A DNA stretch of 64,000 bases. It comes from Trichobilharzia regenti (taxonomy: Eukaryota > Platyhelminthes > Trematoda > Strigeidida > Schistosomatidae). The stretch is taken from the NCBI GenBank assembly GCA_944472135.2, contig OX235262.1, positions 90,618,903 through 90,682,902 on the forward strand, given 5' to 3'. Every line of letters starts with the position of its first letter. The stretch's first letter is position 1. The position numbers were made by a program, and so were the translations under genes. The notes below the pieces were generated by a model that was given only the letters and a program-made list of their open reading frames with translations, was not told the DNA's origin and searched no databases. Shown here piece after piece: positions 30,683-59,419 of this stretch.

Positions 30683-30817
30683 CCGTATCGCGGTACTTTC
30701 AACGTTTGCGTTACATTTTTACGTGATTCGTTACATAAAATTTATCTTGTTGTAGTACTTGCACAAGTACTATACCACTTCCATACTTGTAACCACTAAC
30801 TCTCATTTCTAATAGTT

Positions 30818-35400: not shown

Positions 35401-35601
35401 TCTTTTAAGTCAACACTCCGTGAAAACTTCTTCACAGTCATGTATTCTAAAATATGGAATAGCCTACCCCTAGATGTCAGAACTTGCTCTTCGGTTACAA
35501 GCTTCAAACGCTCTCTATACAGACTGTTTCACTCTACTGATTATATTAATAAACTATTTACTCCTAGAACGAATCAAGCACTAATCTACTACAGCACCTA
35601 A
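32305..35601 (+). CDS. Family A ORF2: endonuclease and reverse transcriptase
   Basis: 1098-residue polyprotein. Residues about 145-360 are an APE-type endonuclease (NARSVLNKL, TESW near 178, GDFNLPEINW near 284, SDH near 350). Residues about 600-880 are the reverse transcriptase (NYRPINITP, YFDISKAFD near 721, SGVVQGSVIGPLLF, catalytic FADD near 811). The C-terminal domain continues to the stop. All key residues are visible. It performs target-primed reverse transcription in the nucleus. An ATG in good context (GCCATGG) exists at 32305, but the ORF1 overlap also holds a slippery site and hairpin, so the product may be an ORF1-ORF2 fusion. Confidence 0.9.
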   Translation: MVITRIQSFFIPRVPVSVEKTAGRDVNTPKPLVLAPSLHENRNGLVHPYPLDTLDTCTSIGQIKNPTHFCNLTKNKSSLVYSKSSTPTPNSPPKTAHNNSIDIGEHDAGTPLNIGSSCPAELLGAEPYSGLTNELKYFKCYFNSHLYVILINARSVLNKLPMLRALTVIYKPPVIVITESWCHSDILDEEISLDNYTHFRCDREGGKGGGCLMYFLNELTVSQLESSTLNMPETLWVNVHLNNVTALIGCSYRAPGTFSNYETQLINTLEQLTDLQYDHKILCGDFNLPEINWDIPTGPTKFDKFLDTLDILGWKQTVTTPTRGNNVLDLIFCHNISPLSTLVGSEFPGSDHKTVMCALPIPLSSNASHTSTSQQVIYRNYSKANWALVESMLRSSKWDEYFTTDDLSRALTIFYHNSNICLDAVIPLQTLKVSPHRKSFIKPKDRKKLKKLSTSYFKHHDFGTLGLILKTLSSITQAQDFRMRKEERIAVASPARVYALTEILRKRMNRKNHSISLLIDKGRLCTNSADICELFNKTFAGNYLKPSVQLLDIHPITKMAQTPTPLTPNQISTVQFTYADINQTIRTLKSSKGFGTDGISSYFYKYGGPDIPLLLLKIFTMSLETQTYPDIWKTTFIMPKHKSGSKTEVSNYRPINITPIASRIMERLVKDNLIKHMLSCNIISPNQHGFLKSRSCLTCHLDFFNFVTSSRDRRQLVLVIYFDISKAFDRVDHLLLTNKLNSLGIRDPLLGWLKSFLNNRSQIVKLGSATSKPSPITSGVVQGSVIGPLLFTLYINDICACFTHGKPFIFADDLKVAYTFQRDDLGNFENVVQKELDKMAAWSSLWNLQFNLNKCGWICFGAPSIDLKLTLQSANLTRLRSVVDLGLRYSSDLTFSEQVASQTRKSRMLLGCILRNFHDNEAKLILYKTCVRPLLEYCPFIISSTRTRDKLRMESIQRYFTSKLLGYDCKKDYISRCMILKLDPLWTRRLIINLIFFFKVLHKISFSGNRDIQFAQEGSYDLRNQTSTVTTHSFKSTLRENFFTVMYSKIWNSLPLDVRTCSSVTSFKRSLYRLFHSTDYINKLFTPRTNQALIYYST
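32329..32380 (+). promoter_or_regulatory. Candidate -1 ribosomal frameshift signal, family A
   Basis: Slippery heptamer T-TTT-TTA at 32329-32335, in phase with ORF1 codons (CAT TTT TTA). A stem-loop follows at 32343-32355 with 32368-32380: CGTCCCTGTCAGC pairs with GCTGGTAGGGATG, 13 pairs with a few G-U. The spacer is 7 nt and the loop 12 nt. The -1 frame is open and is ORF2. Confidence 0.65.
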
Positions 35602-36849: not shown

Positions 36850-38469
36850 TTATTTGATGGGCGTCTTTTTCATTCTGGGTGTCAGCACCAACGACGACTG
36901 TTTGATATCAATTGATGAATTTAGCGGTGGATCAAAAGCTGTTGTTGCTTGGCTTTCAGAAGTTTGTCTACCTGCAAGACCACCACCACTGGTGTCTTTT
37001 ACTATCAGCTCAGGTTTAGCACTAGCATCTGATGACAGGTGGGCTACATGCTGATCAATCACACTGACGGTCTCACAAGTACGCATGCCTTCTGCAACTG
37101 CACCTGCATTTATTTCTACTTCACGTTCAAGTTGTACAGAACCTATATTTAACTTAGCGTTAGTAGGCATTCCCTCCATTTCATCATGATCAACCAAAGA
37201 GGAATCTGAACTATCATGATCATTATCAGAAATATTCAATTTACCGTCATGTTCATCATTTTCAAACTCTTCAATAACAGAAGTAGACAATTTCGGCTCC
37301 TCCTCACAAATCATTAAAGGTTTTATATCTTCACTCTGACTAGTTATACTTTGTAAACTTGTAGGGTCAGAACTGCACTCTGAAGCAGTAACTCTATTCT
37401 GTGACACTCTATTCAACAATGGCTTACCAGTTGTAACTACAGACTTCTTGACCTCACCGTTATCGTCACACAATTCGGAGTCAGACCTGGAGTTTACATT
37501 TAGCTTATCACTGAACTTGCTCACTGATTCACAGTTCACCTTTGTATGCACCTCTTGCAAACGTGTAAACCACAACCGTGTTTGTCTTGCATCTTGTAAC
37601 TTATCTGTTGAGGATGTACTACGAAACCTGTTGCACTCACTAAGTTTATATGCATTACTAGACATCATGGAGCCTTCTCGATATCCACCTCTCTGAGGCC
37701 TATTCGTCATCAGTGACTGCATTTGGCTCTTAGACTGCTCTATTCTAGGGGTGAGATGTAATAGACTGGCGAACTTGCTCATCGATCCATTGACACTATC
37801 TTTTACTAGTTTCAGGATATCATCAAATTTTGGCTCGATACCCTCATCCTCCATACGGTAGCTTATCTTCACCCACTTTCTTTGCAGTTGAGTAGGTAGG
37901 CGTCTTGCTATTACTTCTAGTATAAAACTCGAGTTGAGGTCACTCATGCAATTCATAGAAATCAAGGTATTCTTATAAGTCATAAGATCATCTAAAAACT
38001 CAGTAAGTGCCTTGGAGTCATCTTGAAGTTGACTGCCGTTACCTTTGACGGCTTCGTATACGTTCCTTGCAATCATTGAAGGTCTTCCAAACCTTTGACG
38101 TAATATGCTCATAGCCTCATCGCAGCCCTCTTTTGGCTTCATAAACTTACAGCACTGTATAGCTCTTGCAGCATCTCCAGTGCAATATCTCATCAAATAC
38201 ATTAACTTCAATTCATCACTTAATAGAAAACTACTCGACATGATCTCAAACTCCTTTACAAATTGTAAATAATCAGCCGGGTTTCCATCGAAACACCGTG
38301 GTTCAAATTTAGGGAGTTTGATGTTCCTATTATCCCTGAACGGCGAAACAGTAACATCAACCATATCGCGTTTAACATCAGACACATCGTTACAATTAAC
38401 AGACAAGTCACCATGACTTACTTTCCTGTTTGAATCCAAGACACTCTGTCCCTTCTTTGACCCAGGCAT
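36850..38469 (-). CDS. BEL/Pao-type gag, right-arm copy
   Basis: 539-residue gag-like protein, same start (MPGSKKGQS) as the left copy but without its premature stop, ending KKTPIK. The DUF1759-like core is at residues about 50-150. The zinc-knuckle-like segment is more damaged (WFTRLQEVHTKVNC). The C-terminal half is acidic and Ser/Asp-rich with no recognised domain. No pol gene follows. The region between gag and the 3' LTR is occupied by the family A insertion. Confidence 0.75.
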   Translation of the reverse strand: MPGSKKGQSVLDSNRKVSHGDLSVNCNDVSDVKRDMVDVTVSPFRDNRNIKLPKFEPRCFDGNPADYLQFVKEFEIMSSSFLLSDELKLMYLMRYCTGDAARAIQCCKFMKPKEGCDEAMSILRQRFGRPSMIARNVYEAVKGNGSQLQDDSKALTEFLDDLMTYKNTLISMNCMSDLNSSFILEVIARRLPTQLQRKWVKISYRMEDEGIEPKFDDILKLVKDSVNGSMSKFASLLHLTPRIEQSKSQMQSLMTNRPQRGGYREGSMMSSNAYKLSECNRFRSTSSTDKLQDARQTRLWFTRLQEVHTKVNCESVSKFSDKLNVNSRSDSELCDDNGEVKKSVVTTGKPLLNRVSQNRVTASECSSDPTSLQSITSQSEDIKPLMICEEEPKLSTSVIEEFENDEHDGKLNISDNDHDSSDSSLVDHDEMEGMPTNAKLNIGSVQLEREVEINAGAVAEGMRTCETVSVIDQHVAHLSSDASAKPELIVKDTSGGGLAGRQTSESQATTAFDPPLNSSIDIKQSSLVLTPRMKKTPIK

Positions 38470-38614
38470 TGTTGAACTTGACCCAATTCCAAAAACGTTC
38501 CAGATATTGCTTGTTCAAAGAGGACTTGACCGGCACCAGGAAAGATGAACGGTGACTATCCAAACTTTCACCAACTGTCCGAATCCGCCAGAGTCTGTTT
38601 CTACCGTCAGAAAC

Positions 38615-42278: not shown

Positions 42279-42310
42279 GGCAGCCTGTAGACGGCCGTAA
42301 TTTTGAGTGA
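42279..42310 (+). repeat. Outer terminal inverted repeat, left
   Basis: GGCAGCCTGTAGACGG followed by CCGTAATTTTGAG. It is the exact inverse of 59388-59419. A third copy with one change lies at 54151. Confidence 0.8.
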
Positions 42311-42921
42311 CCGCGAATGAGATAAACAAGCGATTCGCTCGCTTTTGATTGGCCAGTTTGTCATTCGAGTTGAGGTAATTTCAAACATCATTTTGCTGCT
42401 TGGTTAAGTTCTGAATTTCCGTGAGCGTTTTATCAAATTGGAGAGATAACTGACAACACAAATTATTACAGCTCAGGAAAGAAATGATATAGCAGTAGAT
42501 TTATTTGCTGAATTCAACGAATTCATGCCAAATTACGATCTAAGGATTTCTCAGGAGTGTCAAGAATGCAAACAATGTCTTGAAGAGGTAATAACTTCAC
42601 GCAACTTCAATTATCGCTTGACCATTATTTTCAGAGATCCTTAAATAAATATAATATACGCAGTGGTCGGGCTAATCATCATAAAAATGGCATGGTTGAT
42701 GCAGCATATGCTGCATGTTATATATATATATGCTGCTTGTTATAATTCTGAATTAAATCTCAATAATTCTGAAATAATTCTAGCATCCTATAGTGAGTGA
42801 ATTCTGAATTTGTTCTGAAATCGTTTGTTTAGTGGCACAGACTAGAACTAAGTGCTAGTTTTCAGCATAACTAGCGCTAATTCAGAACCGTGTTCTTCTT
42901 TTAAGCATAGCAAAGACTAAA

Positions 42922-43480
42922 TTCAGCACATAGTGGCAATTTTTTCAGCCTAATTTAAGCCTTCGCGGATCATTTTCAGCACTGACTAGCACCAATTCAG
43001 AACGAAAAGACTTAATTCAGCACATAGTGGCAATTTTTTCAGCCTAATTTAAGCCTTCGCGGATCATTTTCAGCACTGACTAGCACTAATTCAGAACGAA
43101 AAGACTTAATTCAGCACATAGTGGCAATTTTTTCAGCCTAATTTAAGCCTTCGCGGATCATTTTCAGCACTGACTAGCACTAATTCAGAACGAAAAGACT
43201 TAATTCAGCACATAGTGGCAATTTTTTCAGCCTAATTTAAGCCTTCGCGGATCATTTTCAGCACTGACTAGCACTAATTCAGAACGAAAAGACTTAATTC
43301 AGCACATAGTGGCAATTTTTTCAGCCTAATTTAAGCCTTCGCGGATCATTTTCAGCACTGACTAGCACTAATTCAGAACGAAAAGACTTAATTCAGCACA
43401 TAGTGGCAATTTTTTCAGCCTAATTTAAGCCTTCGCGGATCATTTTCAGCACTGACTAGCACTAATTCAGAACGAAAGAA
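42922..43480. repeat. 94-bp minisatellite, six copies
   Basis: Units start TTCAGCACATAGTGGC at 42922, 43016, 43110, 43204, 43298 and 43392, an exact 94-bp period. The inner motif TTTTCAGCACTGACTAGCAC recurs in diverged form at 42860-42900 and 48815-48850. The right transposon copy has only about two units (58605-58800). Confidence 0.95.
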
Positions 43481-43521
43481 CTTCTACTTATTATCATCCT
43501 ACGCCGGCGAAATTCATTTAT

Positions 43522-45106
43522 TCAAGTGCAGAAGAAATCAGTTTTTATAATTGAGACTTTTGTATTTATAAATTGTAGTACAACGTCACTGCAATCCGTC
43601 AAGTGCGATCCACTGGCAGCAACCTGCAAATAAGCAGAATAAAATATTAGTGGGTGAAAAATTGTGCTCAGCACATTCTGAGCACTGACATTTATAGAAG
43701 TTTACTTACATAAGTGCCACTGTTATATCCCCCAGTATCTTTTTCATTTGCCTAAAAAAGAAAACAATATTGTGATTACTACATGCTGAACAAACGTTCA
43801 CTTATAGAAGTAAGCAGGCGTTTCACAATATTACCTGAATTCCTTGCTTCCGCTTACGCCTCTGGACACGATCTTTCAAATTATGAAAGTACGATTTCGT
43901 GGCCTTATCCATCATTTCACAAATCTCTCCGGTCGTCATTTGTTGGCCGGAGAAGTGCGACATAATTAAAGCTAGAGAACTAATTACTTCATTATTGAAA
44001 CTTACTTCTCATTATTTTATAAAAGGCATAAGGCACAATGCTTGACTTTGACAAAGTCCCCTGGAATGTAAACTTCAAACCCAATTCAGGTTTTATAACT
44101 TGGTGCATCATGACCTTAAGCGACAACTTTGGATCACTCTGAAGGCAGCTAGCCATCTTAGCAGTCTACAAGAAATAAGAATTGAATACGTCAACTCACA
44201 TATTGCTGTTTGTACTTTTCGTCTCTTAAAGATGCTTCCAGCATCTCTAACTGGTCTTCATTCTCGATCGGAAAGTGCAGTGTTAGGTCCCCGTTTGCTG
44301 GAGGGTAGGTTTGCTGTCGAAATTTTCTATCAGTAGTAATAATGTTCAATATTTTCGTGCACAGGTTAATGATTTCCATATTTGTATCTTTAAATAAATA
44401 ATTATTTTCAAGTAATTACCGAGTAATTTCTTAATTAAGGATTCAGTAGCATATTCGTTAGAGGGCAATCTAAAGCATAAATAAAAATTGTGACAATTAT
44501 TCCTACCGGTCACACACACACTTCTTTTTGGCAATAGGAGATGAAGACTGGAATTGGGGGGCACCCGAAGTACTGAAAATGAAGGGCTTTCCATCAAGTT
44601 AATACCTTGGAATTGGGGCCACGAAGTCATCAAATATGTTATAATCTGGATATTGTGGTTTGATGCAAGCAACCTCACTGGCAGCTACTTCAATATCCAT
44701 TGAGTTGTAAAGGAAATTTTTATCATTTTTCTTGGCATCCCTGAAAAATGTGTTAGACAGACAACGATACCTACCTTTTCGGTCTCTTACTGGGCATTGG
44801 CAACGTGTCATCGTCCATGTCTACATTCCTGGTGCCTTGATCATTGCTTTTCATAAGCTCTATACCCTTTTTACAGTTCTCATACGTATCTAGAAGGGTG
44901 ATAATGAAATATGCCAACTTACCAAATTCCTGCAGTTGACGGAATTGAAATACTGACCATCCAGCCCCGGTAAACATAGGCTCTAGATGGTTTGCTGTGC
45001 TGCTGTACGCACATAAACCACTTCGCATAACCCAAGTGTTTGGGATAGCGACTACAGTGTCATCTTCAAGCGAACGGACGACGAGGTATCTGATTGGTGT
45101 AGAATT
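43522..45106 (-). CDS. DUF4806-type accessory protein, nine exons, micro-introns
   Basis: Spliced minus-strand gene: exons 45106-44775, 44740-44606, 44572-44507, 44469-44420, 44387-44200, 44165-44006, 43971-43835, 43751-43710 and 43623-43522. All introns are GT-AG, of 34, 33, 37, 32, 34, 34, 83 and 86 bp, and every junction keeps the frame. The joined frame is 403 residues plus stop. The N-terminal part (RYLVVRSLEDDTVVAIPNTW, later YENCKKGIELM) and the C-terminal half (EASLRDEKYKQQY, then SLKVMMHHVIKPEVGLKFTF) resemble DUF4806-domain proteins found beside this transposase type in animals. The start exon upstream of 45106 was not identified. Function is unknown; a transposition or DNA-binding partner is an inference. 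Confidence 0.75.
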
Positions 45107-45360
45107 CTGCAAAAGGATATGTGATGAAGTGTAAATACGGCTGTTACTTTATCATGTATCAGGTTGCTTAAAATCAATAACAGCACGGATATACCTATAT
45201 CTCAAAAACGCGGAATAAACTGTCAAATGAACTTCAGTTTCACCAACAACATCAGCCAGTTAGAGGTAGATTTTCGGATTTGACAACAAATAGACGTTAC
45301 AAAAAAACTTAGACGAATTACACATCAACAGTTCAAGCCAAAAATTACGGCACAGTACCC

Positions 45361-47566
45361 TCAATTAAATGTATGAAGCAGGGGGATAACTACTTCGTCG
45401 TTAGTTGTTGGAACAGTCATGCACTTGCAGACAATATTCACATAGGATATCCAGTGTGTTTCGTGACTGAATTTTGAACATCTAAATATCCCTAAATTCC
45501 TTGACTTAAACGGTGTAGTGAAATCATCACTATAATCGCTATAGGGTCGAAAACGTATCCTATCTTCACTTTCGATTTCAACTATATTCCCTGGCTTACC
45601 TAAGGCTAAGATCACATTATCCGGAGAATAAGGTGTGAATATGGTATTTAGATACGTCAGCTTTCCTTTGCAAAATTCAACGCACTTAGTACCAGCTTCT
45701 TTAGGTACGTGCTTCACGCCTGTACTTTTCATTAAGTACACGTGTTCAACATAGCGTTGAGCTGCCTGCTTAGCCACAGCATAACCACAGTGCACGGACT
45801 GTCTTATCTTGCGCATGTAGGACTCGAAGGGAAATGCGCTGAATTCTTCCAATGGCCCATGCAGCTCGACGTCATCCGCTATATGTTTCAGAGAATGTAT
45901 ATTGTAAACAATATGTTCATTTCCGAAACAATTCTCATATTGCAGTAAGAAATTACTTAAATCTGTCCGAGCAGCATCCAAAAACAGTCGGCTGTATTTG
46001 GTACTCGACAGTAAGTATACTGCCAGGGATAATCTCCTAAAATTTGCGTACAGGTGGCATGGTAGAGTGTTTCTAAGTAGGACGGGACCCAAATAGAGTA
46101 AGAAAAGTCTACACTCAGTTGCTTTCCATTGGCTAACGTCGTCTAACGACCGACATTTCCTCTGAAAATCGCAAGGGATGTGTTTCCTACTTACTTCCAG
46201 TCCGTTATTAATATCAGCGATAATCTTACTATGCATTTGCTTCTCTCGCCGTGCCGCAAGACCCTGCCAAAGGAACACTAACTTCTTAACAGCACCAAGG
46301 TATATTAGATGCATTGGCTCCAGTGGAAACGATTTTACCATATCAAGTGGCAATTCCTCAAGACAGCTTCTGCCCCGATGGTGACTTGCTTGAACTTGAC
46401 CACGGAATGTCCTATCATTTCTAAGTGTATGGTTCCCATTAGGAAATGTCATCCTACCCTCTAAACAACAACCTATAACTTCACATTTATCACAACCTGA
46501 TTTTCCATTGTGACCGACGGTTTGTTTTACATTAGAACGAGCAGGCGTGTCACATATAAATGCAAGAACACTGACAGTCACACTCCTACCCCACTTCTCA
46601 ACATATAAACCGTATTTATAAAGATCTTTCAATTCAGCTAATAGGTCCATAGCAACCTCATTGAAGTTGCTCGGTTTTCTCAAACCGCCATGTATGCCAA
46701 TTAAAAAAACGTCACTGACGTATGGAGTTGTGATACGACCTAGGAATGGCCATAATTGCTGCGAAGAACTGTTTGATATAGATAAACCGTCATAGTTGAT
46801 TTGCAAGCCAATATGTTGAAAAGTACCGTAGTCAACCCAACTATCTAGATAACGCTGCAGATTTTCCTTCAGTCCAATGTGATAGTAAACACCTTGTCCA
46901 AGAAATCTAGGTACACACATGCCGCTATCTTTTAGCAGGCCTCTTATGGTTGTTGGCACATGTGGATTAAATTTACGCATACAGTCCAAGACATTTTGCG
47001 CAAGCTTCCCTGTTACATTGTTCTGAAGGAACAATTCCATAATTGATTTTCTGACCAGCTCTTTTTGTGTCATCTTTTCAGGAACAACCTGAAGTTCTAT
47101 TGAAATTAATTATTGCATAATAATAAATGTTACGATTCTCTTCAGTTTGTGAAACAACAGCGACGGTCTCACTAGTACTAGGTAAACCCACTGTTCCCTG
47201 TACAGTTGAACTTGAAGGCAAAGTTACTGTATTATCCCTTGCCACCTCTTCTCTGGATGAGCAGTAACGTTTCCAGAAGTCCCAGTCACTGAATGCTGCA
47301 TCACGTAACCGTTTTTGACGGCGATAAAATGTTGAGTAGCTGTATCCAAAGCATTCATGCAGTCTGCCAGAAGATATTCTTCTCTTACGACTTGTTGCAG
47401 AATGTTGAATACCCGTATTTAACACATTATCTGAGTTGTTTTCCTTATAATAGAAATGGACAAATATGCACCCAAAATCTAACTCACCTGCATGATTTAT
47501 AAATCCTGTAAGAATGGTCTTTGTATGTGAGGAGTACTGCTTATATACTTCTAGGCAAACATCAGT
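45361..47566 (-). CDS. CACTA-like (Tnp2-type) transposase
   Basis: Two visible exons, 47566-47134 and 47096-45361, joined across a 37-bp intron (47133-47097), give a frame of 722 residues. The first exon has a basic region (TSRKRRISSGRLHE, then STFYRRQKRLRD) that may bind DNA. The second contains the core: INYDGLSISNSSSQQLWPFL, FICDTPARSNVKQTVGHNGK with a CDKCE pair, LDMVKSFPLEPMHLIYLGAV, and a DUF4218-like end (NIHSLKHIADDVELHGPLEE, then FPFESYMRKIRQSVHCGY). Candidate catalytic acids are the D of NYDG, the D of FICD and the E of PLEPMH. An acceptor-like site before 47566 suggests a further upstream exon. No stop or frameshift is seen. Confidence 0.82.
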
Positions 47567-48083
47567 CTGTTAAATATGAAAAGGGATGACTTGTGAACTG
47601 TAATCACAGTCCACCAATTAAATTGTAATCACAATTGTTAACATTTTCCTTACAGCAAGTATATGTTTTCATATGTGAATCAACACAATCTGTCACCCCT
47701 TGTTTCATTTGGATTCCCAAGGTTTAAATATATGAACTCGTAGACAGTATTCAGCAATCGAAACAATTTACATAACATATGTTATGTATTCACACCATTA
47801 TTATTATATAATAATAATGGTATGAAATGCAAATAAAATATCTGTAATTCTAATCATAGTTAAATGTAAAGTAGCAAGACAATCAGTGTCAGATATAGAA
47901 TAATACCTGAGGTGTATAGATGTTGGAAAGGGGTGCAAAATTGTAGGATTAGTAGGTGGATATAAAATGCTACATGACATGGTGTGAAATTTGGTAAGAT
48001 AGAATTCAATATGGCCCAAAAATTTTTTACATTAATAATTTTGACAATCGTAGAACAGACATCAAACTTATGATGTACGATGT

Positions 48084-48139
48084 AAAATGAAAAAAATTTA
48101 TAAACCAGACATGTCTGGTTTATAAATTTTTTTCATTTT
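48084..48139. repeat. Perfect 56-bp palindrome
   Basis: 28-bp arms without spacer, centred on ACATGT (48109-48114); inner arm TATAAACCAGACATG. Every base from 48084 to 48139 pairs. Confidence 0.95.
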
Positions 48140-48173
48140 TGACCTCATCTCAAATTCGCTTACATTCCACAAA

Positions 48174-48205
48174 CGAAAAATATATTATTCATAATATATT
48201 TTTCG
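48174..48205. repeat. 32-bp palindrome with 2-nt spacer
   Basis: CGAAAAATATATTAT, TC, ATAATATATTTTTCG. Confidence 0.95.
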
Positions 48206-48699
48206 TATGAATTCATGCGACCAATTCACCTTCCCCTACCCCTGTTGAATTATGTTTTCGTTGTATTCTTATTTACTGTCACACCTCTGGTCAAATAGAT
48301 CAATCACATCATATGTAATTCGCAGACAAGTCTGTAGCCGTTACACTACGTAATCTGTGTGAAACCTACTCTTTGCTGATTGGTTGGTTTCAATATACTA
48401 CAATATTACAATTCATGAATTGTAATCAAATTCAGTGACGCTCCACAAACGAAATATATTATTCATTACAATCTTCATATGTTATCAATTCACATTCCCC
48501 TACCCCCTGTTGAATTATGTTTTCATTGTATTCATATTTACTGTCACACCTCCGGGGAAATAAACCAATCACATCACATGAAATTCACAGACAAGTGTGA
48601 AGCCGTTACACTACGTACTCTGTGTGAAACCTACTGTTTGCTGATTGGTTGGTTGGTTTCAATAGACGATGTCGAGAGAGAGAGAGAGGACGTGCTATT

Positions 48700-48889
48700 T
48701 TTCAGTATTAACCGCAGCAGTTTAGCATGCAGTGCTTATTTTCAGCACTTAAGGCATTATTTCAGATGGTGATCTTATTTTTAAGAATTTGTCGCATTAA
48801 TTAAGCACCCAGCTCTATTTTTCAGCACGACCAGCGTTATTTCAGAGCATAGTGGGTAGAAAAAATAATCATTTACCAAAAAAAGGCAT
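48700..48889. repeat. Subterminal-type motif cluster
   Basis: Repeated TTTTTCAGCAC/ATTTCAG motifs end with AGAGCATAGTG at about 48857, i.e. CACTATGCTCT on the other strand. They resemble the 94-bp units at the opposite end, in the same orientation. They could be transposase-binding repeats or the end of an inner CACTA element. Confidence 0.4.
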
Positions 48890-49586
48890 TATCGACGCAT
48901 AGGTTAGAATAAGTTTAGAATTTTTGTAAGCATATATATATATGTATATATTTGTATATGTAGGTAAACCTAGTTGAACTGTGTTCTTGTCACGAAGATC
49001 GGAAAGCAGGTACCAGATGTCTTAGTAAGCAGTGTAATACATGTAAGTTACATGTTTTTATTTGACATAAACTGGATCTCCACTCACTTTCAGAATTAAT
49101 CTTAAATTCAGTTGGAATAAGCTTGTTGAGCACATCAGTATTGAGAGAATACAGTGAAAGTAAGTAAACACATGCTTCTTAAGATTAAGTGATACATTTA
49201 TTTGATATGATTGTATTATTGTTAGTTGTCTATCTAAGTTAATGATGAATTCGTTGCGATAATAATACCTATTATTGTTTTTATAGTCACTATGAACATG
49301 AACGTTATTATTATTGCTATCAAGACCTATTATTTGTCATAAAGTGGTTGTCATTTTTGCTAAAATATTTGTACAAGCTTTGGAAACTACTGCATAACTT
49401 GTCGTTAAATAATTTTATCATTTCATGATGCTTCGATGGACCTACTAGATATCGACAAACGATAAGTTGCGAAGTCCCTTAAGTTTAGTGAAAACTATTG
49501 GGCTACTTATATATATATATATTGTTTGTAAAGTGATTACTTGTAAATGCTTATCAGGAATATTTTTTTATTCAGATCATACATGT
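48890..49586. other. Non-coding head region of left copy, outer part
   Basis: Inverted counterpart of about 55654-56320. Short open segments with splice-like borders occur on the plus strand (for example the Cys-rich 48962-49045), but no gene can be called. It ends at the CR1-like insertion. Confidence 0.45.
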
Positions 49587-49977
49587 GAAAAGGCACGATC
49601 ACGACCTTAAATTAGTGAGTAGTATTATAAGGAAGATGCTCCCAGCGAATTTCCCTGGAGTATCGATTAAAAAGCTGATTAGAATAGGCAAAAGAGATGA
49701 TGAATGTTCTAGTCAGCGTAGGTTGCTTAAAGTAGTCTTAGGTTCTCCTGATGAACGGAATCATCTACTGGCTAATGTACACAACCTTGCCGGGTCAGGA
49801 ATTTCAGCCAGACCTGATTTATCTCTTGAAGACAGACTTAAACGAAAAGAAGTTTTGTCCCAGCTAGAAACAAGACGTAAAAATGGTGAGACTAACCTTA
49901 AACTGGTGGGTTTTCAAATAGTCAGGTCTTGGAAACGTATGCTTCCAAGACCTGTGTGGATAAGCCAGACCGCATAG
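49587..49977 (+). pseudogene. ORF1 C-terminal fragment of CR1-like element
   Basis: About 130 residues in phase from the truncation point, with no native start. The sequence SSIIRKMLPANFPGVSIKKL, then RRLLKVVLGSPDERNHLLA resembles the nucleic-acid-binding C-terminal half of CR1-like ORF1 proteins. It overlaps ORF2, which lies in the -1 frame, and contains a slippery heptamer. Confidence 0.65.
49908..49954 (+). promoter_or_regulatory. Candidate -1 ribosomal frameshift signal, CR1-like element
   Basis: Slippery heptamer G-GGT-TTT at 49908-49914, in phase with ORF1 codons (GTG GGT TTT CAA), then an 8-nt spacer. A perfect 12-bp stem follows: CAGGTCTTGGAA (49923-49934) with TTCCAAGACCTG (49943-49954), loop 8 nt. 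The -1 frame is open through the site into ORF2, and ORF2 has no ATG. Confidence 0.75.
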
Positions 49978-52769
49978 GAAGCCTGAAGGTAGTGTACACT
50001 AATATACGTAGTATCGGGAACAAATTTCACGAGCTAGGTGTATTAGTAGAAGACCTTAGCCCAGGTATTGTGGCCATTACTGAAACATGGCTGGTTTCGG
50101 GATTAGATGACACACCTGAGCTATGCGGATTTAGTTGCTTGCGCAGCGACAGAGTTAAGGGTCGTAGAGGTGGCGGGGTTGCTCTGTACATCAACAACTC
50201 CCTACATGTTCGTTCCGTGAAATCTGAAGCTCATGACAGTGGGACAGGTGAGGTAATTAGCTGTGAAGTAAGCTTTGCAACCGGCACTCTACTCATTGGA
50301 GTTCTGTATAGAAGTCCCTATTGTCAGTGTGATGACTTCATTTTAGATCACCTCAAACAATGGAGTAAACACAGTAGCTGTCTTATTCTAGGTGATTTTA
50401 ATGCACCTCATATAGACTGGGTAGCTGTCACATCTCCAGGATCCGCTGATAAGTTTGACAGCCGGTTACTCTTGACAACCATGGAAAATGCCCTGACACA
50501 ACATGTCTTAGGTAGTACAAGATTCGGTTCTACCCAAGGATCTTCCTTGCTGGACTTAGTGCTTACTCATGACAACGACGACGTGGATGGTCTAGTTATT
50601 CATCCACCTCTAGCAAACAGTGATCATGGGGTGTTAGATTTTAACTTAAGGGCTGGCAATTTAGTCAGTTTTCAACCCAAATCCCGGCCTAGTGTTTGGC
50701 ATGCTGACATAGTGGCTATAAAGGAGCGTGCTTCAACTGCCGACTGGTCAGTCAACATTGTCTCATCCATTGAAGATGAATGGGATAGATTTAAGAATAC
50801 ACTTGAGAGGGTTACCACTGATCTCATCCCCTGGAGGGTTCCTAAAAGGCCAACAAATCGGCCACCATGGATAAATAGACAAGCTATAACACTCCTGAGA
50901 CGGAGAAAAAGGTTCTGGAATCTCTTTGTTTCTACTGGGCTACAGCAGTTCCGGCTGAAATACTGTGAAACCAGAAACCAGTGTAAAACTTTGATCCACC
51001 AGTCAAGGATAGCTTACGAAACCCAGTTAGTTAAAAGTTCACCAGGCTGCCCAAAAAGACTCTTCTCATATATCAAGAGAAGAACACGTAAGAGTGATGC
51101 TATCCCACCTCTTATGCTTGAAGATGACCAGACAAACATGGCTGAGGATAACTTGACTAAGGCTGAGGCTTTGTCCAAGCACTTTAGTCAAGTATTCTCT
51201 GATAATATTGATACCAGCTTTGTAAATTTTCCAGAAGGTAACTTGAAAATGGCACCCTTATACATTGGAAAGGATACTGTCCTAAAGTGGCTTCTAAGGC
51301 TCAATCCTGGTAAGTCCAGTGGCCCTGATGAACTCCACCCACGTATATTAACAGCATTGGCTGAAAGCATAGCCGAGCCATTGTCGGTAATCTTCAATAT
51401 GTCTCTGGACCAGTCTAAATGTCCAAGAGACTGGAAAGATGCCATCATTAGTCCGGTCTTCAAAACCGGATCTAGAAACTTAGTTCAGAACTATCGTCCT
51501 GTTAGTTTGACCAGTATTGTTGTTAAACTACTAGAAAGAATAATTCGTGATGCTATCATTCAGTTCATTGAAGGGAACAAACTTTTCGCTGTGGAACAGC
51601 ACGGTTTTAGAGCAGGTCATTCTTGCTTGACCAACCTTCTTTTGGCCAGAGAAAGTTGGGCAAGCTCAGCTGATGCTAATATACCGGTGGATGCCATATT
51701 CATAGACCTTAGCAAGGCGTTTGACAGGGTTTCTCATTCAGGTCTTCTAGTAAAGTTAGGTAGTCTGGGAATCAATAAAGTGGTTACCGACTGGATTCAA
51801 GACTTTCTAAAGGACAGAAGACAAAGAGTACGAGTTAACGGGGTTTTATCAACATGGGAATCGGTTAAGAGTGGCGTTCCTCAGGGTACAATTCTAGGCC
51901 CACTTCTTTTCCTGATTTATGTTAATGAGATTCCATCGGTAGTTAAGTCATCCTGCTTACTGTTTGCTGATGACATCAAGATATGGAGGGCTTTGCACGA
52001 TGACAGTGATCAACTTGCTTTGCAGGAAGATTTAAACTTGTTAAGTGATTGGTGTAAGCACTGGGCCTTGGAGATTAACTTAAGCAAGAGTGTAGTTATG
52101 CATGTATCCCATAGTCACGTGCACAATTACTCAATGAATGGCATTACTCTCCCAGTGGTCACTGAGTACAAGGACTTGGGAGTGGTTGTGCAGCATGACT
52201 TGAAAACAGCAACAAACTGTAGAACTGCAGCCACTAAGGGTTTTCGAATGTTATGGGCCATACGCAAGGCTTTTGCGAACTTTGACGCTGATATATTTCG
52301 TATATTATATCCGACTTATATCAGACCTCATTTGGAATATGGGATCCAGGCAGCGAGCCCGTGTTTCAAATACGAAATAGACTTATTAGAAAGGGTGCAA
52401 AGAGTAGGAACTAAGCTAATAAAGGGTTTCTCAACCCTGTCATATGAGGAGAGGTTAAGTCGACTGGGTTTATTTCCACTGTCATACAGACGACTTAGGG
52501 GTGACCTAATACTAGCATACCGTATCCTAAGAAATGATTTTGGAGCTAATTTATCTAAATTATTTCTTCCTTCTAGCACCAACCAATTGCGAGGACATCA
52601 CCTCAAGGTTCAAAAACCACGGTCGAATCGTCTGCGTCTGGAAATCCGTTTTTCGCATCGAATTGTGAACCATTGGAACTCCCTACCGGAACACGTCGTA
52701 TCAGCGCCATCCGTTGATTCATTCAAGGCGAGATTGGACCTCCTGTATGCAATAAATCGAAAGGATTAA
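49929..52769 (+). CDS. CR1-like ORF2: endonuclease and reverse transcriptase
   Basis: About 946 residues without a stop. The endonuclease shows TNIRSIGNKF, AITETWL, GDFNAPHIDW and SDHGVLDF. The RT shows NYRPVSLTSI, IDLSKAFDRVSH, SGVPQGTILGPLLF and catalytic FADD, with the usual C-terminal region (WNSLPEHVVSAPSVDSFK). There is no ATG at the start of the frame; 49929 is TTG and the frame is open further upstream into ORF1. Initiation by -1 frameshifting from ORF1 is therefore likely in a full-length element. All catalytic residues are present. Confidence 0.88.
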   Translation: METYASKTCVDKPDRIGSLKVVYTNIRSIGNKFHELGVLVEDLSPGIVAITETWLVSGLDDTPELCGFSCLRSDRVKGRRGGGVALYINNSLHVRSVKSEAHDSGTGEVISCEVSFATGTLLIGVLYRSPYCQCDDFILDHLKQWSKHSSCLILGDFNAPHIDWVAVTSPGSADKFDSRLLLTTMENALTQHVLGSTRFGSTQGSSLLDLVLTHDNDDVDGLVIHPPLANSDHGVLDFNLRAGNLVSFQPKSRPSVWHADIVAIKERASTADWSVNIVSSIEDEWDRFKNTLERVTTDLIPWRVPKRPTNRPPWINRQAITLLRRRKRFWNLFVSTGLQQFRLKYCETRNQCKTLIHQSRIAYETQLVKSSPGCPKRLFSYIKRRTRKSDAIPPLMLEDDQTNMAEDNLTKAEALSKHFSQVFSDNIDTSFVNFPEGNLKMAPLYIGKDTVLKWLLRLNPGKSSGPDELHPRILTALAESIAEPLSVIFNMSLDQSKCPRDWKDAIISPVFKTGSRNLVQNYRPVSLTSIVVKLLERIIRDAIIQFIEGNKLFAVEQHGFRAGHSCLTNLLLARESWASSADANIPVDAIFIDLSKAFDRVSHSGLLVKLGSLGINKVVTDWIQDFLKDRRQRVRVNGVLSTWESVKSGVPQGTILGPLLFLIYVNEIPSVVKSSCLLFADDIKIWRALHDDSDQLALQEDLNLLSDWCKHWALEINLSKSVVMHVSHSHVHNYSMNGITLPVVTEYKDLGVVVQHDLKTATNCRTAATKGFRMLWAIRKAFANFDADIFRILYPTYIRPHLEYGIQAASPCFKYEIDLLERVQRVGTKLIKGFSTLSYEERLSRLGLFPLSYRRLRGDLILAYRILRNDFGANLSKLFLPSSTNQLRGHHLKVQKPRSNRLRLEIRFSHRIVNHWNSLPEHVVSAPSVDSFKARLDLLYAINRKD

Positions 52770-52811
52770 CACAGGCATATAGCCTACTATCCTAAATAAA
52801 TTGTAAACTGT

Positions 52812-54150
52812 AATACCCAAGTTAATTATGCTTTTCTTAAACCTTTTCAGACTTATGGAAAAACATATATGTACCGTGTACGCAGATGGAACTTACTGAC
52901 GGTAACAGAGGACTACTCATCTGAATTATCTGTACATTTGAAATCTGATTTTTGTTTAATAAACAATTTTTCAATGAATCTGTCTTCCTTCTGTTGTAAT
53001 GCGATTGTGTTCCAGTAACATAAGTAGCACGTGCTAAGTTAGGAGTTAAAGGTAAACTGTTAGGAGTAAATGCGGCGTCTGGAAAACTTTTGTTTACTTG
53101 ATTATATGAGCAGATAGCAACGTATCGTGTTCTTTGGCTGAGAACCCTAGGCATTCTGTTTTTAATTATTACGATAACCGTAGTTCCACTGAGTCATACA
53201 TCTAACAGCATAGGTATAGTCTCTCCTTATGGTATACTGCGGCATGCAGAAATCACAAGCAAACTATCTCAGGTAGATTTATTTTCACTTTGTGACTATG
53301 AATCGCGAATCAGTATATGTATTCTGCTAAGACGATAGATAACTCGAAACGCTTTATAATCACAATACCTCCTCTACGATTTAGACATATTTACTTTATT
53401 TGACTACAACATAATGTTTTACCAATAGGCTTCTCCGAATATCTGCTCCTACTTAGTATTTCAAAGATAGCCTCACATACTCTATACCTCACAAATTACG
53501 CAAGGACTAATATTCGGTCTTATCAAGTAGAATAAACAAACGAATAACAAGGAATACATTTATTAATGAATTAACATGTAATACAAAATCGACAACAGTG
53601 CAGGTATCTTTTTCTTTATCACCCAAATCCATCAAATTCCCGAAAGTAGATATTATCTGAAAAAGAACATAAGAATTATACAGATGTATACATTGTTATC
53701 AGTGTAAACACAATAATTAACCATTAAATATGCTTAAAATGACAAAATAATGATTTGAACTGTATATAATTATGTTAGTCAACATTTTTCAATAATGCAA
53801 AGTTGATATTCCATCTGCCTGCTAACATCAAGTTTATGCCATCAAATAAGGAAATACTATGCATATATAATTTTTAAGTATTTCTGCAGATTTTTCTTAA
53901 AGAAATACATGTGGAGGAGCCTTGTCAGCATTTAGGCAAAGTACACAACAAAGTAAGTGAAATAATTACCAAAACGAGCTATCCCACCTCATCATGTCCA
54001 TGTGTAATCCATTAAACTGCAAAATAAATTCACAAAAAGTCGTTATAACATGTGTCTTCAAGTAATTAGACATTTTCTGAACGGAAAAATTATGTATTTT
54101 CAGCGAACTGTAAACTGCCTGTAACCTACGCCCGGATAAGGACACCACCA
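52812..54150. repeat. P2 inner arm, left
   Basis: Inverted counterpart of 54316-55654 (paired positions sum to 108466), nearly identical. No gene can be called. A 105-codon open frame (53154-52837 minus; 55312-55629 plus) is conserved in both arms only because they are copies of each other. Confidence 0.85.
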
Positions 54151-54322
54151 GGCAGCCTGTAGACGGACGTAGGTCATTTGATCAGCTGATGGATATTGGC
54201 GTTATTTATTGGAAAAACGTCAAGGTTAGGTCATTTTTCGTTGTTTTTCACACTTTTTTACCTATATTCCTTCTAAAAGTTGATGAAATGCCGCCTATTT
54301 AGCGGAAAGAGCATATGCTGAT
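54151..54322 (+). other. Head segment with terminal repeat, spacer of palindrome P2
   Basis: The only part of the right copy's head not mirrored in the left copy. It begins with the third terminal repeat and ends where the inverted arm starts (GTCCTTATCCGGG at 54323). It contains GTAGGTCATTTGATCAGC, and no coding sequence. Confidence 0.7.
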
Positions 54323-56320
54323 GTCCTTATCCGGGCGTAGGTTACAGGCAGTTTACAGTTCGCTGAAAATACATAATTTTTCCGTTCAGAAAATGTCTAA
54401 TTACTTGAAGACACATGTTATAACGACTTTTTGTGAATTTATTTTGCAGTTTAATGGATTACACATGGACATGATGAGGTGGGATAGCTCGTTTTGGTAA
54501 TTATTTCACTTACTTTGTTGTGTACTTTGCCTAAATGCTGACAAGGCTCCTCCACATGTATTTCTTTAAGAAAAATCTGCAGAAATACTTAAAAATTATA
54601 TATGCATAGTATTTCCTTATTTGATGGCATAAACTTGATGTTAGCAGGCAGATGGAATATCAACTTTGCATTATTGAAAAATGTTGACTAACATAATTAT
54701 ATACAGTTCAAATCATTATTTTGTCATTTTAAGCATATTTAATGGTTAATTATTGTGTTTACACTGATAACAATGTATACATCTGTATAATTCTTATGTT
54801 CTTTTTCAGATAATATCTACTTTCGGGAATTTGATGGATTTGGGTGATAAAGAAAAAGAAACCTGCACTGTTGTCGATTTTGTATTACATGTTAATTCAT
54901 TAATAAATGTATTCCTTGTTATTCGTTTGTTTATTCTACTTGATAAGACCGAATATTAGTCCTTGCGTAATTTGTGAGGTATAGAGTATGTGAGGCTATC
55001 TTTGAAATACTAAGTAGGAGCAGATATTCGGAGAAGCCTATTGGTAAAACATTATGTTGTAGTCAAATAAAGTAAATATGTCTAAATCGTAGAGGAGGTA
55101 TTGTGATTATAAAGCGTTTCGAGTTATCTATCGTCTTAGCAGAATACATATACTGATTCGCGATTCATAGTCACAAAGTGAAAATAAATCTACCTGAGAT
55201 AGTTTGCTTGTGATTTCTGCATGCCGCAGTATACCATAAGGAGAGACTATACCTATGCTGTTAGATGTATGACTCAGTGGAACTACGGTTATCGTAATAA
55301 TTAAAAACAGAATGCCTAGGGTTCTCAGCCAAAGAACACGATACGTTGCTATCTGCTCATATAATCAAGTAAACAAAAGTTTTCCAGACGCCGCATTTAC
55401 TCCTAACAGTTTACCTTTAACTCCTAACTTAGCACGTGCTACTTATGTTACTGGAACACAATCGCATTACAACAGAAGGAAGACAGATTCATTGAAAAAT
55501 TGTTTATTAAACAAAAATCAGATTTCAAATGTACAGATAATTCAGATGAGTAGTCCTCTGTTACCGTCAGTAAGTTTCATCTGCGTACACGGTACATATA
55601 TGTTTTTTCATAAGTCTGAAAAGGTTTAAGAAAAGCATAATTAACTTGGGTATTACATGTATGATCTGAATAAAAAAATTTTCCTGATAAGCGTTTACAA
55701 GTAATCACTTTACAAACAATATATATATATATAAGTAGCCCAATAGTTTTCACTAAACTTAAGGGACTTCGCAACTTATCGTTTGTCGATATCTAGTAGG
55801 TCCATCGAAGCATCATGAAATGATAAAATTATTTAACGACAAGTTATGCAGTAGTTTCCAAAGCTTGTACAAATATTTTAGCAAAAATGACAACCACTTT
55901 ATGACAAATAATAGGTCTTGATAGCAATAATAATAACGTTCATGTTCATAGTGACTATAAAAACAATAATAGGTATTATTATCGCAACGAATTCATCATT
56001 AACTTAGATAGACAACTAACAATAATACAATCATATCAAATAAATGTATCACTTAATCTTAAGAAGCATGTGTTTACTTACTTTCACTGTATTCTCTCAA
56101 TACTGATGTGCTCAACAAGCTTATTCCAACTGAATTTAAGATTAATTCTGAAAGTGAGTGGAGATCCAGTTTATGTCAAATAAAAACATGTAACTTACAT
56201 GTATTACACTGCTTACTAAGACATCTGGTACCTGCTTTCCGATCTTCGTGACAAGAACACAGTTCAACTAGGTTTACCTACATACCCAAGCTTACAAAAA
56301 TTCTAAACCTATTCTAACCT
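54323..56320. repeat. P2 inner arm, right, with preserved empty site
   Basis: Mirror of the left head region without the CR1-like insertion; the unoccupied target is near 55654. No gene called. Confidence 0.8.
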
Positions 56321-56388
56321 ATGCGTTGATAAATATTAACAGTTGTGATAACAGTTCATCCGTCATCCCTTTTCATATTAAAAGGACG

Positions 56389-56706
56389 GATGTTTGCATA
56401 GAGGTATATAAGCAGTACGCCGTACATACAGAGATGATTCTTAAAGGATTTATAAATCATGCAGGTGAGTTAGATTTTGGTTGTATATTTGTCCAATTCT
56501 CTTATAAGGAAAACAACTCCAATAATGTGTTAAATACGGGTATTCAACATTCTACAACAAATCGTAAGAGAAGAATATCTTCTGGCAGACTGCATGAATG
56601 CCTTGGATACAGCTACTCAACATTTTATAGCCGTCAAAAACGGTTACGTGATGCAGCATTTAGTGACTGGGACTTGTGGAAACGTTACTACTCATCTAGA
56701 GAATAG
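56389..56706 (+). pseudogene. Transposase first exon, right copy
   Basis: Encodes the equivalent of the left copy's first exon (CIEVYKQYAVHTEMI, then STFYSRQKRLRD) but ends in a premature TAG at 56704 after SSRE, where the left copy reads SSREEVARDN. The intron and start of exon 2 are removed by a deletion ending near 56842. Confidence 0.75.
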
Positions 56707-56841
56707 GTGGCAAGGGATAATACAGTAACTTTGCCTTCAAGTTCAACTGTCCAGGGAACAGTGGGTCTATCTAGTACTAGTGAGACCGTCACTGTTGTTT
56801 TACAAATTGAAGAGAATCGTAACATTTATTAATATGTAACA

Positions 56842-57840
56842 GTTGGGTTGACTACGGTACTTTTCAACATATTGGCTTGCAAATCAACTATGACGGTTTA
56901 TCTATATCAAACAGTTCTTCGCAGCAATTATGGCCATTCCTAGGTCGTATCACAACTCCATACGTCAGTGACGTTTTTTTAATTGGCATACATGGAGGTT
57001 TGAGAAAACCGAGCAACTTCAATGAGGTTGCTATGGACCTATTAGCTGAATTGAAAGATCTTTATAAATACGGTCTATATGTTGAGAAGTGGGGTAGGAG
57101 TGTGACTGTTAGTGTTCTAGCATTTATATGTGACACGCCTGCTCGTTCTAATGTAAAACAAACCGTCGGTCACAATGGAAAAACAGGTTGTGATAAATGT
57201 GAAGTTATAGGTTGTCGTTTGGAGGGTAGGATGACATTTCCTAATGGGAACCATACACTTAGAAATGATAGGACATTTCGTGGTCAAGTTCAAGCAAGTC
57301 ACCATCAGGGCAGAAGCTGTCTTGAGGAATTGCCACTTGATATGGTAAAATCGTTTCCCTTGGAGCCAATGCATCTAATATACCTTGGTGTTGTTAAGAA
57401 GTTAGTGTTCCTTTGGCAGGGTCTTGCAGCACGGCGAGAGAAGCAAATGGATAGTAAGATTATCGCAGATATTAATAACGGACTGCAAGTAAGTAGGAAA
57501 CACATTCCTTGCGATTTTCAGAGGAAATGTCGGTCGTTAGATGACGTTAGCCAATGGAAAGCAACTGACTGTAGACTTTTCTTACTATATTTGGGTCCCG
57601 TCCTACTTAGAAACACTCTACCATGTCACCTGTACGCTAATTTCAGGAGATTATCCCTGGCAGTATACTTACTGTCGAGTACCAAATACAGCCGACTGTT
57701 TTTGGATGCTGCTCGGACAGATTTGAGTAATTTCTTACTGCAATATGAGAATTGTTTCGGAAATGAACATATTGTTTACAATATACATTCTCTGAAACAT
57801 ATAGCGGATGACATCGAGCTGCATGGGCCATTGGAAGAAA
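56842..57840 (+). pseudogene. Transposase core, right copy, fused to DUF4806 gene
   Basis: About 330 residues equivalent to the middle of the intact transposase (NYDGLSISNSS, FICDTPARSN, LDMVKSFPLEPMHL, HSLKHIADDIELHGPLEE). After GPLEE the frame jumps into exon 5 of the neighbouring gene (KYKQQY), because 1.64 kb has been deleted at a short GAA/AAG overlap. The DUF4218-like C-terminus is missing, so it is inactive. Confidence 0.8.
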
Positions 57841-58540
57841 AGTACAAACAGCAATATGTGAGTTGACGTATTTAATTCTTATTTCTTGTAGACTGCTAAG
57901 ATGGCTAGCTGCCTTCAGAGTGATCCAAAGTTATCACTTAAGGTCATGATGCACCATGTTATAAAACCTGAAGTGGGTTTGAAGTTTACATTCCAGGGGA
58001 CTTTGACAAAGTCAAGCATTGTGCCTTATGCCTTTTATAAAATAATGAGAAGTAAGTTTCATTAATGAAGTAATTAGTTCTCTAGCTTTAATTATGTCGC
58101 ACTTCTCCGGCCAACTAATGACGACAAGAGTGATTTGTGAAATGATGGATAGGGCCACGAAATCATACTTTCATAATTTGAAAGATCGTGTCCAAAGGCG
58201 TAAGCGGAGGCAAGGAATTCAGGTAATATTGCGAAACGTCTGCTTACTTCTATAAGTGAACGTTTATTCAACATGTAGTAATCACAGTATTGTTTTCTTT
58301 TCTAGGCAAATGAAAAAGATACCGGGGGCTATAACAGTGGCACTTATGTAAGTAAACTTCTATAAATGTAAATGCTCAGAATGTGCTGAGCACAATTTTT
58401 CACCCACTAATATTTTATTCTGCTTATTTGCAGGTTGCTGCCAGTGGATCGCACTTGACGGGATTGCAGTGACGTTGTACTACAGTTTATAAATACAAAA
58501 GTCTCAATTATAAAAACTGATTTCTTCTGCAAACTAAATG
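57841..58540 (+). pseudogene. DUF4806-type gene, last exons, right copy
   Basis: Last exons equivalent to 44200-43522, with the same splice sites (GTGAGT...TTGTAG, GTAAGT...CTCTAG). Text such as SLKVMMHHVIKPEVGLKF and FHNLKDRVQRRKRRQG is retained. The first four exons and part of the fifth are lost, and small indels occur near the end. Confidence 0.65.
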
Positions 58541-58595
58541 AATTTCGCCGGCGTAGGACACAGGTGATGATAATAAGTAGAAGTCTTTTCGTTCT

Positions 58596-58800
58596 AAAGT
58601 AATGCGAGTCAGTGCTGAAAATGATCTGCGAAGGCTTGTATTAGGCTGAAAAAATTGCCACTATGTGCTGAATTTAGTCTTTTCGTTCTGAATTAGTGCT
58701 AGTCAGTGCTGAAAATGATCTGCGAAGGCTTGAATTAGGCTGAAAAAATTGCCACTATGTGCTGAATTTAGTCTTTTCGTTCTGAATTAGCGCTAGTTAT
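58596..58800. repeat. 94-bp minisatellite, about two copies
   Basis: Inverted equivalent of 42922-43480 with about two units instead of six (AATTGCCACTATGTGCTGAA at both). Confidence 0.85.
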
Positions 58801-59387
58801 GCTGAAAACTAGCACTGAGTTCTAGTCTGTGCCATTAAACAAACGATTTCAGAACAAATTCAGAATTTACTCACTATAGGATACTAGAATTACTTCAGAA
58901 TTACTGATATTTAAGCCAGAATTATAACAAGCTTGGGATATACAAAAGTATACGTATATGCTGCATCAACCATGCTGTTTTTATCATGATTAGCCAGACC
59001 ACTGTGTATATTATACTTATTTAAGGATCTCTGAAAATAATAGTCAAGCGATAATTGAAGTTGCGTGAAGTTATTACCTCTTCAAGACATTGTTTGCATT
59101 CTTAAGAGTGTCAAGGAGTGTTAAGGAGTGTCAATTGACACTCCTGAGAAATCCTTAGATCGTAATTTGGCATGAATTCGTTGAATTCAGCAAATAAATC
59201 TACTGCTATATCATTTCTTTCCTGAGCTGTAATAATTTGTGTTGTCAGTTATCTCTCCAATTTGATAAAACGCTCACGGAAATTCAGAACTTAACCAAGC
59301 AGCAAAATGATGTTTGAAATTACCTCAACTCGAATGACAAACTGGCCAATCAAAAGCGAGCGAATCGCTTGTTTATCTCATTCGCGG

Positions 59388-59419
59388 TCACTCAAAATTA
59401 CGGCCGTCTACAGGCTGCC
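59388..59419 (-). repeat. Outer terminal inverted repeat, right
   Basis: Ends ACAGGCTGCC at 59419; inverse of 42279-42310. No convincing target duplication with the left flank. Confidence 0.8.

Follow-up and report, generated by a model that had tools for sequence, protein, structure and literature searches.

A candidate programmed -1 ribosomal frameshift site at the ORF1-ORF2 junction of presumed CR1-like LINEs in Trichobilharzia regenti

Results

The junction signal of a family B element

Sequence comparison indicates that the ORF1-ORF2 junction of a presumed CR1-like LINE from Trichobilharzia regenti (family B) is probably a programmed -1 ribosomal frameshift site, which would give an ORF1-ORF2 fusion protein. 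The window, that is, the whole 64-kb stretch of DNA that was analyzed, holds a single family B copy, seated in one arm only of a palindrome, with the following features.

49587..52805, + strand: family B LINE copy, a 5'-truncated insertion, with the empty site in the other palindrome arm
49588..49977, + strand: C-terminal part of ORF1, stop TAG at 49975-49977 (full ORF1 about 370 aa)
49899..49901, + strand: TAA stop of the -1 frame, shortly before the heptamer
49908..49914, + strand: slippery heptamer G GGT TTT in ORF1 phase, seen in the sequence and kept in families C and F
49915..49922, + strand: spacer CAAATAGT, 8 nt, of equal length in family C
49923..49954, + strand: perfect hairpin of 12 bp with a loop of 8 nt, about -18.8 kcal/mol, the proposed frameshift stimulator
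49914..52769, + strand: ORF2 in the -1 frame from the shift site, comprising a linker, endonuclease, reverse transcriptase and stop TAA (open reading frame and Pfam)

The original prediction described G-GGT-TTT in ORF1 phase, an 8-nt spacer, a 12-bp stem with an 8-nt loop and a -1 frame open into the endonuclease, and all of these are confirmed in the sequence. In ORF1 phase the junction reads GTG GGT TTT CAA ATA GTC AGG TCT TGG AAA CGT ATG CTT CCA AGA CCT GTG TGG ATA AGC ... GCA TAG; the heptamer stands about 20 codons ahead of the ORF1 stop, and the hairpin has the arms CAGGTCTTGGAA and TTCCAAGACCTG and the loop ACGTATGC. Since the TAA at 49899-49901 lies in the -1 frame, this frame is enterable only there or later. 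The peptide expected across the junction would be ...LVGF/SNSQVLETYASK. Besides GGGTTTT at 49908, the ORF1 fragment contains one other in-phase heptamer of the X XXY YYZ type, TTTCCCT at 49650.

A chance origin of the hairpin is very unlikely. When the element was shuffled 200 times with its dinucleotides preserved, a perfect 12-bp hairpin starting 4-10 nt past a point was found at 0 of 631,800 positions and a perfect 10-bp hairpin at 6e-5 of positions, and the 60 nt downstream of the heptamer fold with z = -3.6 (0/500 shuffles equally stable). Five distinct perfect hairpins of at least 12 bp (loop 3-15) exist in the 64 kb, the junction hairpin included; each arm of the other four, which are AT-rich palindromes, has 2-5 G or C, compared with 6/12 in the junction hairpin. 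A pseudoknot formed by TATGC of the loop with GCATA at 49972-49976 was rejected, its probability by chance being a few per cent by a rough estimate and family C having no counterpart in the same register.

The frame of ORF2 is open from stop to stop at 49902-52769 (955 aa). Pfam places the endonuclease domain at residues 43-242 and also matches a reverse transcriptase domain. The predicted lack of an ATG start was borne out, as the first methionine is residue 194 of the stop-to-stop frame, within the endonuclease domain, and no earlier ATG is present in 30/30 family B copies. A predicted protein, P0002 (762 aa), begins ORF2 at an internal ATG. The ORF1 fragment is 100% identical to P0058 (Trichobilharzia regenti, by its UniRef name) over 99% of its length and has a sub-threshold match to a PHD finger (20 bits; Pfam cut-off 24). 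The apurinic-type endonuclease, the reverse transcriptase, the 5' truncation and the lack of any LTR seen identify family B as a LINE; the bird EN-RT proteins P0016 and P0018, which are not named CR1, show 34% and 32% identity.

The insertion and its surroundings

The inverted-repeat arms (48952-49586 with 55655-56289, and 52809-54150 with 54316-55657) match each other except at 49587-52805, and the other arm therefore represents the empty site. The insertion is flanked by CATACATGT on the left and TGTAATACCC on the right, and the empty site reads CATACATGTAATACCC; the 3-bp TGT overlap at the insertion ends is either a short target-site duplication or microhomology. Because of the 5' truncation, the ORF1 of this copy is only about the C-terminal third. 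A candidate intron upstream of ORF1 (a GTAAGT...TTCAG-like stretch before 49577) was dropped as lying outside the insertion. Among the 30 family B copies compared, 22 extend 1145-1241 nt beyond the heptamer on the 5' side; a simple majority walk over these copies (L001-L030) placed the 5' end about 1145 nt upstream of the heptamer in 9/30 and 1210-1241 nt upstream in 13/30, perhaps reflecting two start sites or 5' variants.

Several other repeats were observed in the window. The large palindrome (42279-59419) has arms of several kb that are up to 100% complementary and lie 165 nt apart at 54150/54316. Both arms contain a long ORF (45361-47109, - strand, 582 aa; 56823-57866, + strand, 347 aa), perhaps a mobile-element gene; a Pfam search with these ORFs gave no significant match, the best for the first one being DUF4218 (E 0.14). 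Tandem arrays of a related 94-bp unit are present, inverted, in both arms (42912-43477 and 58582-58808). Elsewhere, 19250-23626 comprises four copies spaced 1359 bp, 99-100% identical across the 300 nt compared, with an inverted relative at 15144-16507, and an ORF of 554 aa at 36850-38514 (- strand) matches DUF1759 (Pfam, E 1e-10), a domain known from Bel/Pao LTR retrotransposons.

Conservation in family B and in the sister family C

A search of the genome of the same species (954 Mb, 548 contigs) yielded 296 candidates for family B, and all 40 matches scored were 100% identical across 801 bp. Thirty loci were retrieved, including the window copy (L029). All of them share an identical 70-nt junction and have the first methionine of the -1 frame 189 codons past the site; the first 660 codons of this frame are open in 26/30. 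Position-by-position identity of the 30 loci, computed without realignment, has a mean of 0.938 and a minimum of 0.67 from -300 to +1990 nt of the site, and a mean of 0.926 and a minimum of 0.64 across a longer stretch; we take the low values to reflect indels and truncations in single copies. Six further copies, picked for unusual ORF1 matches, all keep the heptamer and the stem; in L085 an indel of one base follows the stem, and L087 is cut short further downstream.

The Schistosoma bovis protein P0005 led to a sister family, C, in the same genome (49 matches scored out of 54,136 candidates, 45 of the 49 free of stops). Its junction, CTA TTG GGT TTT CGG GTG GTG AGG TCT CGG AAA CCG ATG CTG CCG AGA CCT CTC TTC ATA AGC, is identical in 30/30 loci and has the heptamer, the spacer length and the -1 frame of family B. 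From the site, 949 codons of the -1 frame are open in 30/30, with the first methionine after 197. The mean pairwise identity of family C is 99.86%; judged by their sequences, both families look young. Further family C copies with the junction (n=24) came from two sets, 12 of 13 stretches in one (L061 is without the junction) and 12 of 18 in the other. Of these, 22 retain GGGTTTT, which is lost in L062 and reads GGGTTTA in L064; six have a single stem-base difference (four to G:U, two to a mismatch), which does not exceed what is expected of single drifting copies.

The 8-nt spacing also separates the heptamer of family C from its hairpin (-17.2 kcal/mol), the fold of which is only moderately above shuffles (z -1.7; 28/500 as stable). 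Both B and C have what marks a -1 frameshift site, namely an in-phase heptamer, an overlapping gene open in the -1 frame and a structure 5-9 nt downstream.

The codon alignment of B and C uses the same codon for the same residue in 233/616 cases and is thus near-saturated at synonymous sites. The block where ORF1 and ORF2 overlap keeps 9/12 codons, its nucleotide identity of 0.75 being the highest of the ORF1 blocks. Two stem pairs are changed on both sides from B to C (C:G to G:C and U:A to C:G), and one near-loop pair is lost in C. When the third family, F, is added, three stem pairs are double-changed, compared with 0-1 in slid registers, and 41/500 column shuffles reach the covariation score of the three rows (B, C, F); the apparent covariation comes from few families and is limited evidence.

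All 12/12 pairs of B arose in 22-27 of 400,000 synonymous redraws with the ORF1 protein fixed and in 707-719 of 400,000 with the ORF2 protein fixed (two runs each), while at least 11 pairs, the number observed in C, arose in about 0.12% of redraws in the ORF1 frame and about 0.18% in the ORF2 frame. The rarity of the observed pairing suggests that a stem structure is kept beyond the proteins, and these numbers show that protein coding is insufficient to explain the stem of B and C. The probability of the heptamer by chance, given the amino acids, is 0.062 in B, 0.039 in C and 0.092 in F, for which the codon frequencies of B and C were applied.

A third family with a weak hairpin

Family F, found with P0069, is abundant (114 matches scored out of 2069 candidates, a few of them being family B). 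GGGTTTT is in phase at 11/14 junctions read, the exceptions being L097, L100 and L102. In copies such as L093 the TAA of the -1 frame abuts GGG TTT, and from the site to the endonuclease start the -1 frame is free of methionine in 12/13 copies that reach this point. In L097 the heptamer has turned into ATGTTTT, which puts a methionine at the site, and both L097 and L102 carry a stop.

The hairpin of family F is weak. Only 5/12 Watson-Crick pairs form in the same register (-3.3 kcal/mol), with the inner TTCG/CGAA part of the stem retained, and the 60 nt downstream have less structure than shuffled sequences (z +1.8; 491/500 shuffles at least as stable), so that the stable structure of a -1 frameshift site is missing here. 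As F keeps the heptamer and the frame with a weak hairpin, the stem is not universal, and the heptamer is more conserved than the stem. The expectation that other members would share the heptamer and show compensatory stem changes thus held for B and C (30/30 each, with the two double changes in C) and only partly for F.

Family A of the window

The second LINE of the window belongs to family A.

30800-32401: ORF1 of the family A LINE
32302-35601: ORF2 of the family A LINE

At 32329-32335 the heptamer T TTT TTA stands in the phase of ORF1, and a stable stem follows after about 6 bases (overlap region 32329-32450; 60-nt fold z -4.64, 1/500 shuffles). The candidate signal differs in sequence from that of B, which fits the shared strategy that had been proposed for the two families. 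The different heptamer with its significant stem speaks for this proposal, whereas the ATG of the family A ORF2 at 32305, upstream of the heptamer, speaks against it.

Relatives in Schistosoma and other searches

The ORF1 tail VRSWKRMLPRPVWI is invariant in family B, P0061, P0062, P0063 and P0070 (the last three from Schistosoma), the ORF1 proteins P0061, P0062, P0063 and P0070 being 41-46% identical to P0058. P0064 has one change in the tail, P0067 and P0068 have VRSWKPMLPRPVWV instead, and P0069 differs clearly. Gly-Phe is found at the heptamer in every aligned ORF1 protein that reaches it and is lost in the degenerate family F copies L097 and L102.

We also decoded ORF1 tails and ORF2 starts jointly in two frames, a procedure that cannot separate ATG from GTG for M. 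P0068 (Schistosoma rodhaini) and P0004 are -1-compatible over 10 codons to the ORF1 end, the maximum in 300 shuffled sets being 7; at the protein level, this supports a putative -1 relation for this pair. P0061 with P0003 and P0067 with P0005 are compatible over 6 codons each to the ORF1 end; since at least 6 codons occurred in 8/300 shuffled sets, the case for these two pairs is weak. For P0067 and P0005, a +1 reading at another place spans 5 codons.

No relatives were found in the viral contigs searched, where 15 pattern matches encoded no relative. Four loci in bacterial genome contigs (23-31% identity) were set aside. The LINE-like reverse transcriptase present in contigs of bacterial bins (L106-L109) is likely eukaryotic contamination.

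Discussion

Proposed mechanism and alternatives

From the layout of the junction, the absence of an early AUG, the conservation and the covariation, we infer pausing, slippage at some efficiency and a fusion protein. Ribosomes translating ORF1 reach G GGU UUU before the ORF1 stop, and the hairpin 8 nt downstream would make them pause. A fraction would then slip back by one base with both tRNAs, from G GGU UUU to GGG UUU U, and continue in the -1 frame to produce a Gag-Pol-like ORF1-linker-endonuclease-reverse transcriptase fusion; unslipped ribosomes would end at UAG and release the ORF1 protein.

ORF2 might instead start independently, at a non-AUG codon after the stem (GTG in B and F) or by reinitiation past the ORF1 stop, with the stem only stalling ribosomes or recruiting factors. 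We regard this as unlikely. A GTG is indeed present in the -1 frame of B (49956-49958) and also in F, and the ORF2 of P0003-P0005 begins with M at the same place by dual-frame decoding (NTG from GTN-TGG). However, family C has CTT at this position, so that the heptamer is conserved and no start codon is, and position -3 of the GTG in B is a T, a poor start-codon context. Reinitiation would call for an AUG at or near the ORF1 stop, and none occurs within the 189 codons (B) or 197 codons (C) that follow the site. An independent start would also leave the in-phase heptamer, the fixed spacer and the -1 relation of B, C and F unexplained.

It is quite improbable that the stem is an RNA element for packaging or reverse transcriptase recognition and the heptamer a mere coding of the conserved Gly-Phe, with ORF2 expressed otherwise. 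The conservation of Gly-Phe across the aligned ORF1 proteins and the absence of a strong stem in F agree with it, but GGN TTY by itself dictates neither the G at the preceding third position nor the choice of GGT and TTT, the product over the three families being about 2e-4; among seven other GF pairs in the ORF2 of B and C, there is one xxG GGT TTT and one xxG GGT TTC; and the stem lies at the canonical distance from the heptamer. The window alone, with its one copy, might have suggested chance or an assembly artefact, an explanation that is barely credible given that the junction is common to 30/30 family B copies and that the sister families keep the heptamer and the frame; the search of the species' own genome refuted a single-copy artefact.

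A -1 frameshift thus remains our preferred reading of the family B junction. For schistosomatid CR1-like LINEs in general, we lean towards a broader view, in which EN-RT would be made only as a Gag-Pol-like -1 fusion, by a mechanism that would be old, being common to the lineages of Trichobilharzia and Schistosoma, and would have been gained two or more times, on heptamers that are unrelated (TTTTTTA in A, GGGTTTT in B, C and F).

Comparison with known systems

Retroviral and totiviral gag-pol-type sites consist of an in-phase X XXY YYZ heptamer, a spacer of 5-9 nt and a downstream RNA structure, with the enzyme in the -1 frame. SART1, a silkworm LINE of the R1 clade, uses stop-start reinitiation at an overlapping stop-AUG. 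Like family B, SART1 is a LINE whose ORF2 is read from a bicistronic mRNA close to where ORF1 stops; in contrast to its stop-AUG, there is no AUG in B, in C or in the intact-heptamer F copies that reach the endonuclease start. Family B shares the heptamer, spacer, structure and -1 enzyme with the retroviral and totiviral sites (see also the available part of the recoding review PMC5009743) and differs from them in being a non-LTR element with a simple hairpin, not an established pseudoknot.

The Dictyostelium elements TRE5-A and TRE3-A need a -1 frameshift for ORF2, as stated in the available part of PMC5911963. They resemble B as two-ORF non-LTR elements and differ in host and element family, and that part of the text names no heptamer with a covarying stem. 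For Paramecium LINEs, the part of PMC5405496 available suggests +1 frameshifting, reinitiation or read-through, not -1; ORF2 is offset from ORF1 there as in B. For mammalian LINEs, the portion of PMC5009743 available favors an unknown kind of initiation. The CR1 elements of schistosomes (SR1, Perere, pido) are of the same host group and presumably of the same element type, with Schistosoma ORF1 proteins sharing the tail; the available parts of PMC1291365, PMC8293314 and PMC8392823 describe no frameshift signal in them.

The original prediction held such a signal to be undescribed. This stands for CR1-like elements in the open literature searched, where titles and beginnings of abstracts of the papers listed revealed no -1 frameshift signal, and has to be qualified for LINEs at large by the statement on Dictyostelium TRE elements in the part of PMC5911963 cited above. 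The use of -1 frameshifting for a LINE ORF2 has accordingly been stated before; what appears to be new is its putative heptamer and hairpin form in these fluke LINEs.

Implications

The translation of the second ORF of LINEs is a long-standing open question. The candidate signal at this junction is compact and conserved, and occurs in animal LINEs that are young and probably active. If the frameshift is real, ORF2 predictions that begin at an internal ATG, such as P0002, omit most of the endonuclease. The ORF2 protein would then arise joined to the ORF1 protein, in a fixed proportion as in retroviruses; this would offer a simple account of cis-preference and dosage and would set these elements apart from L1 and SART1.
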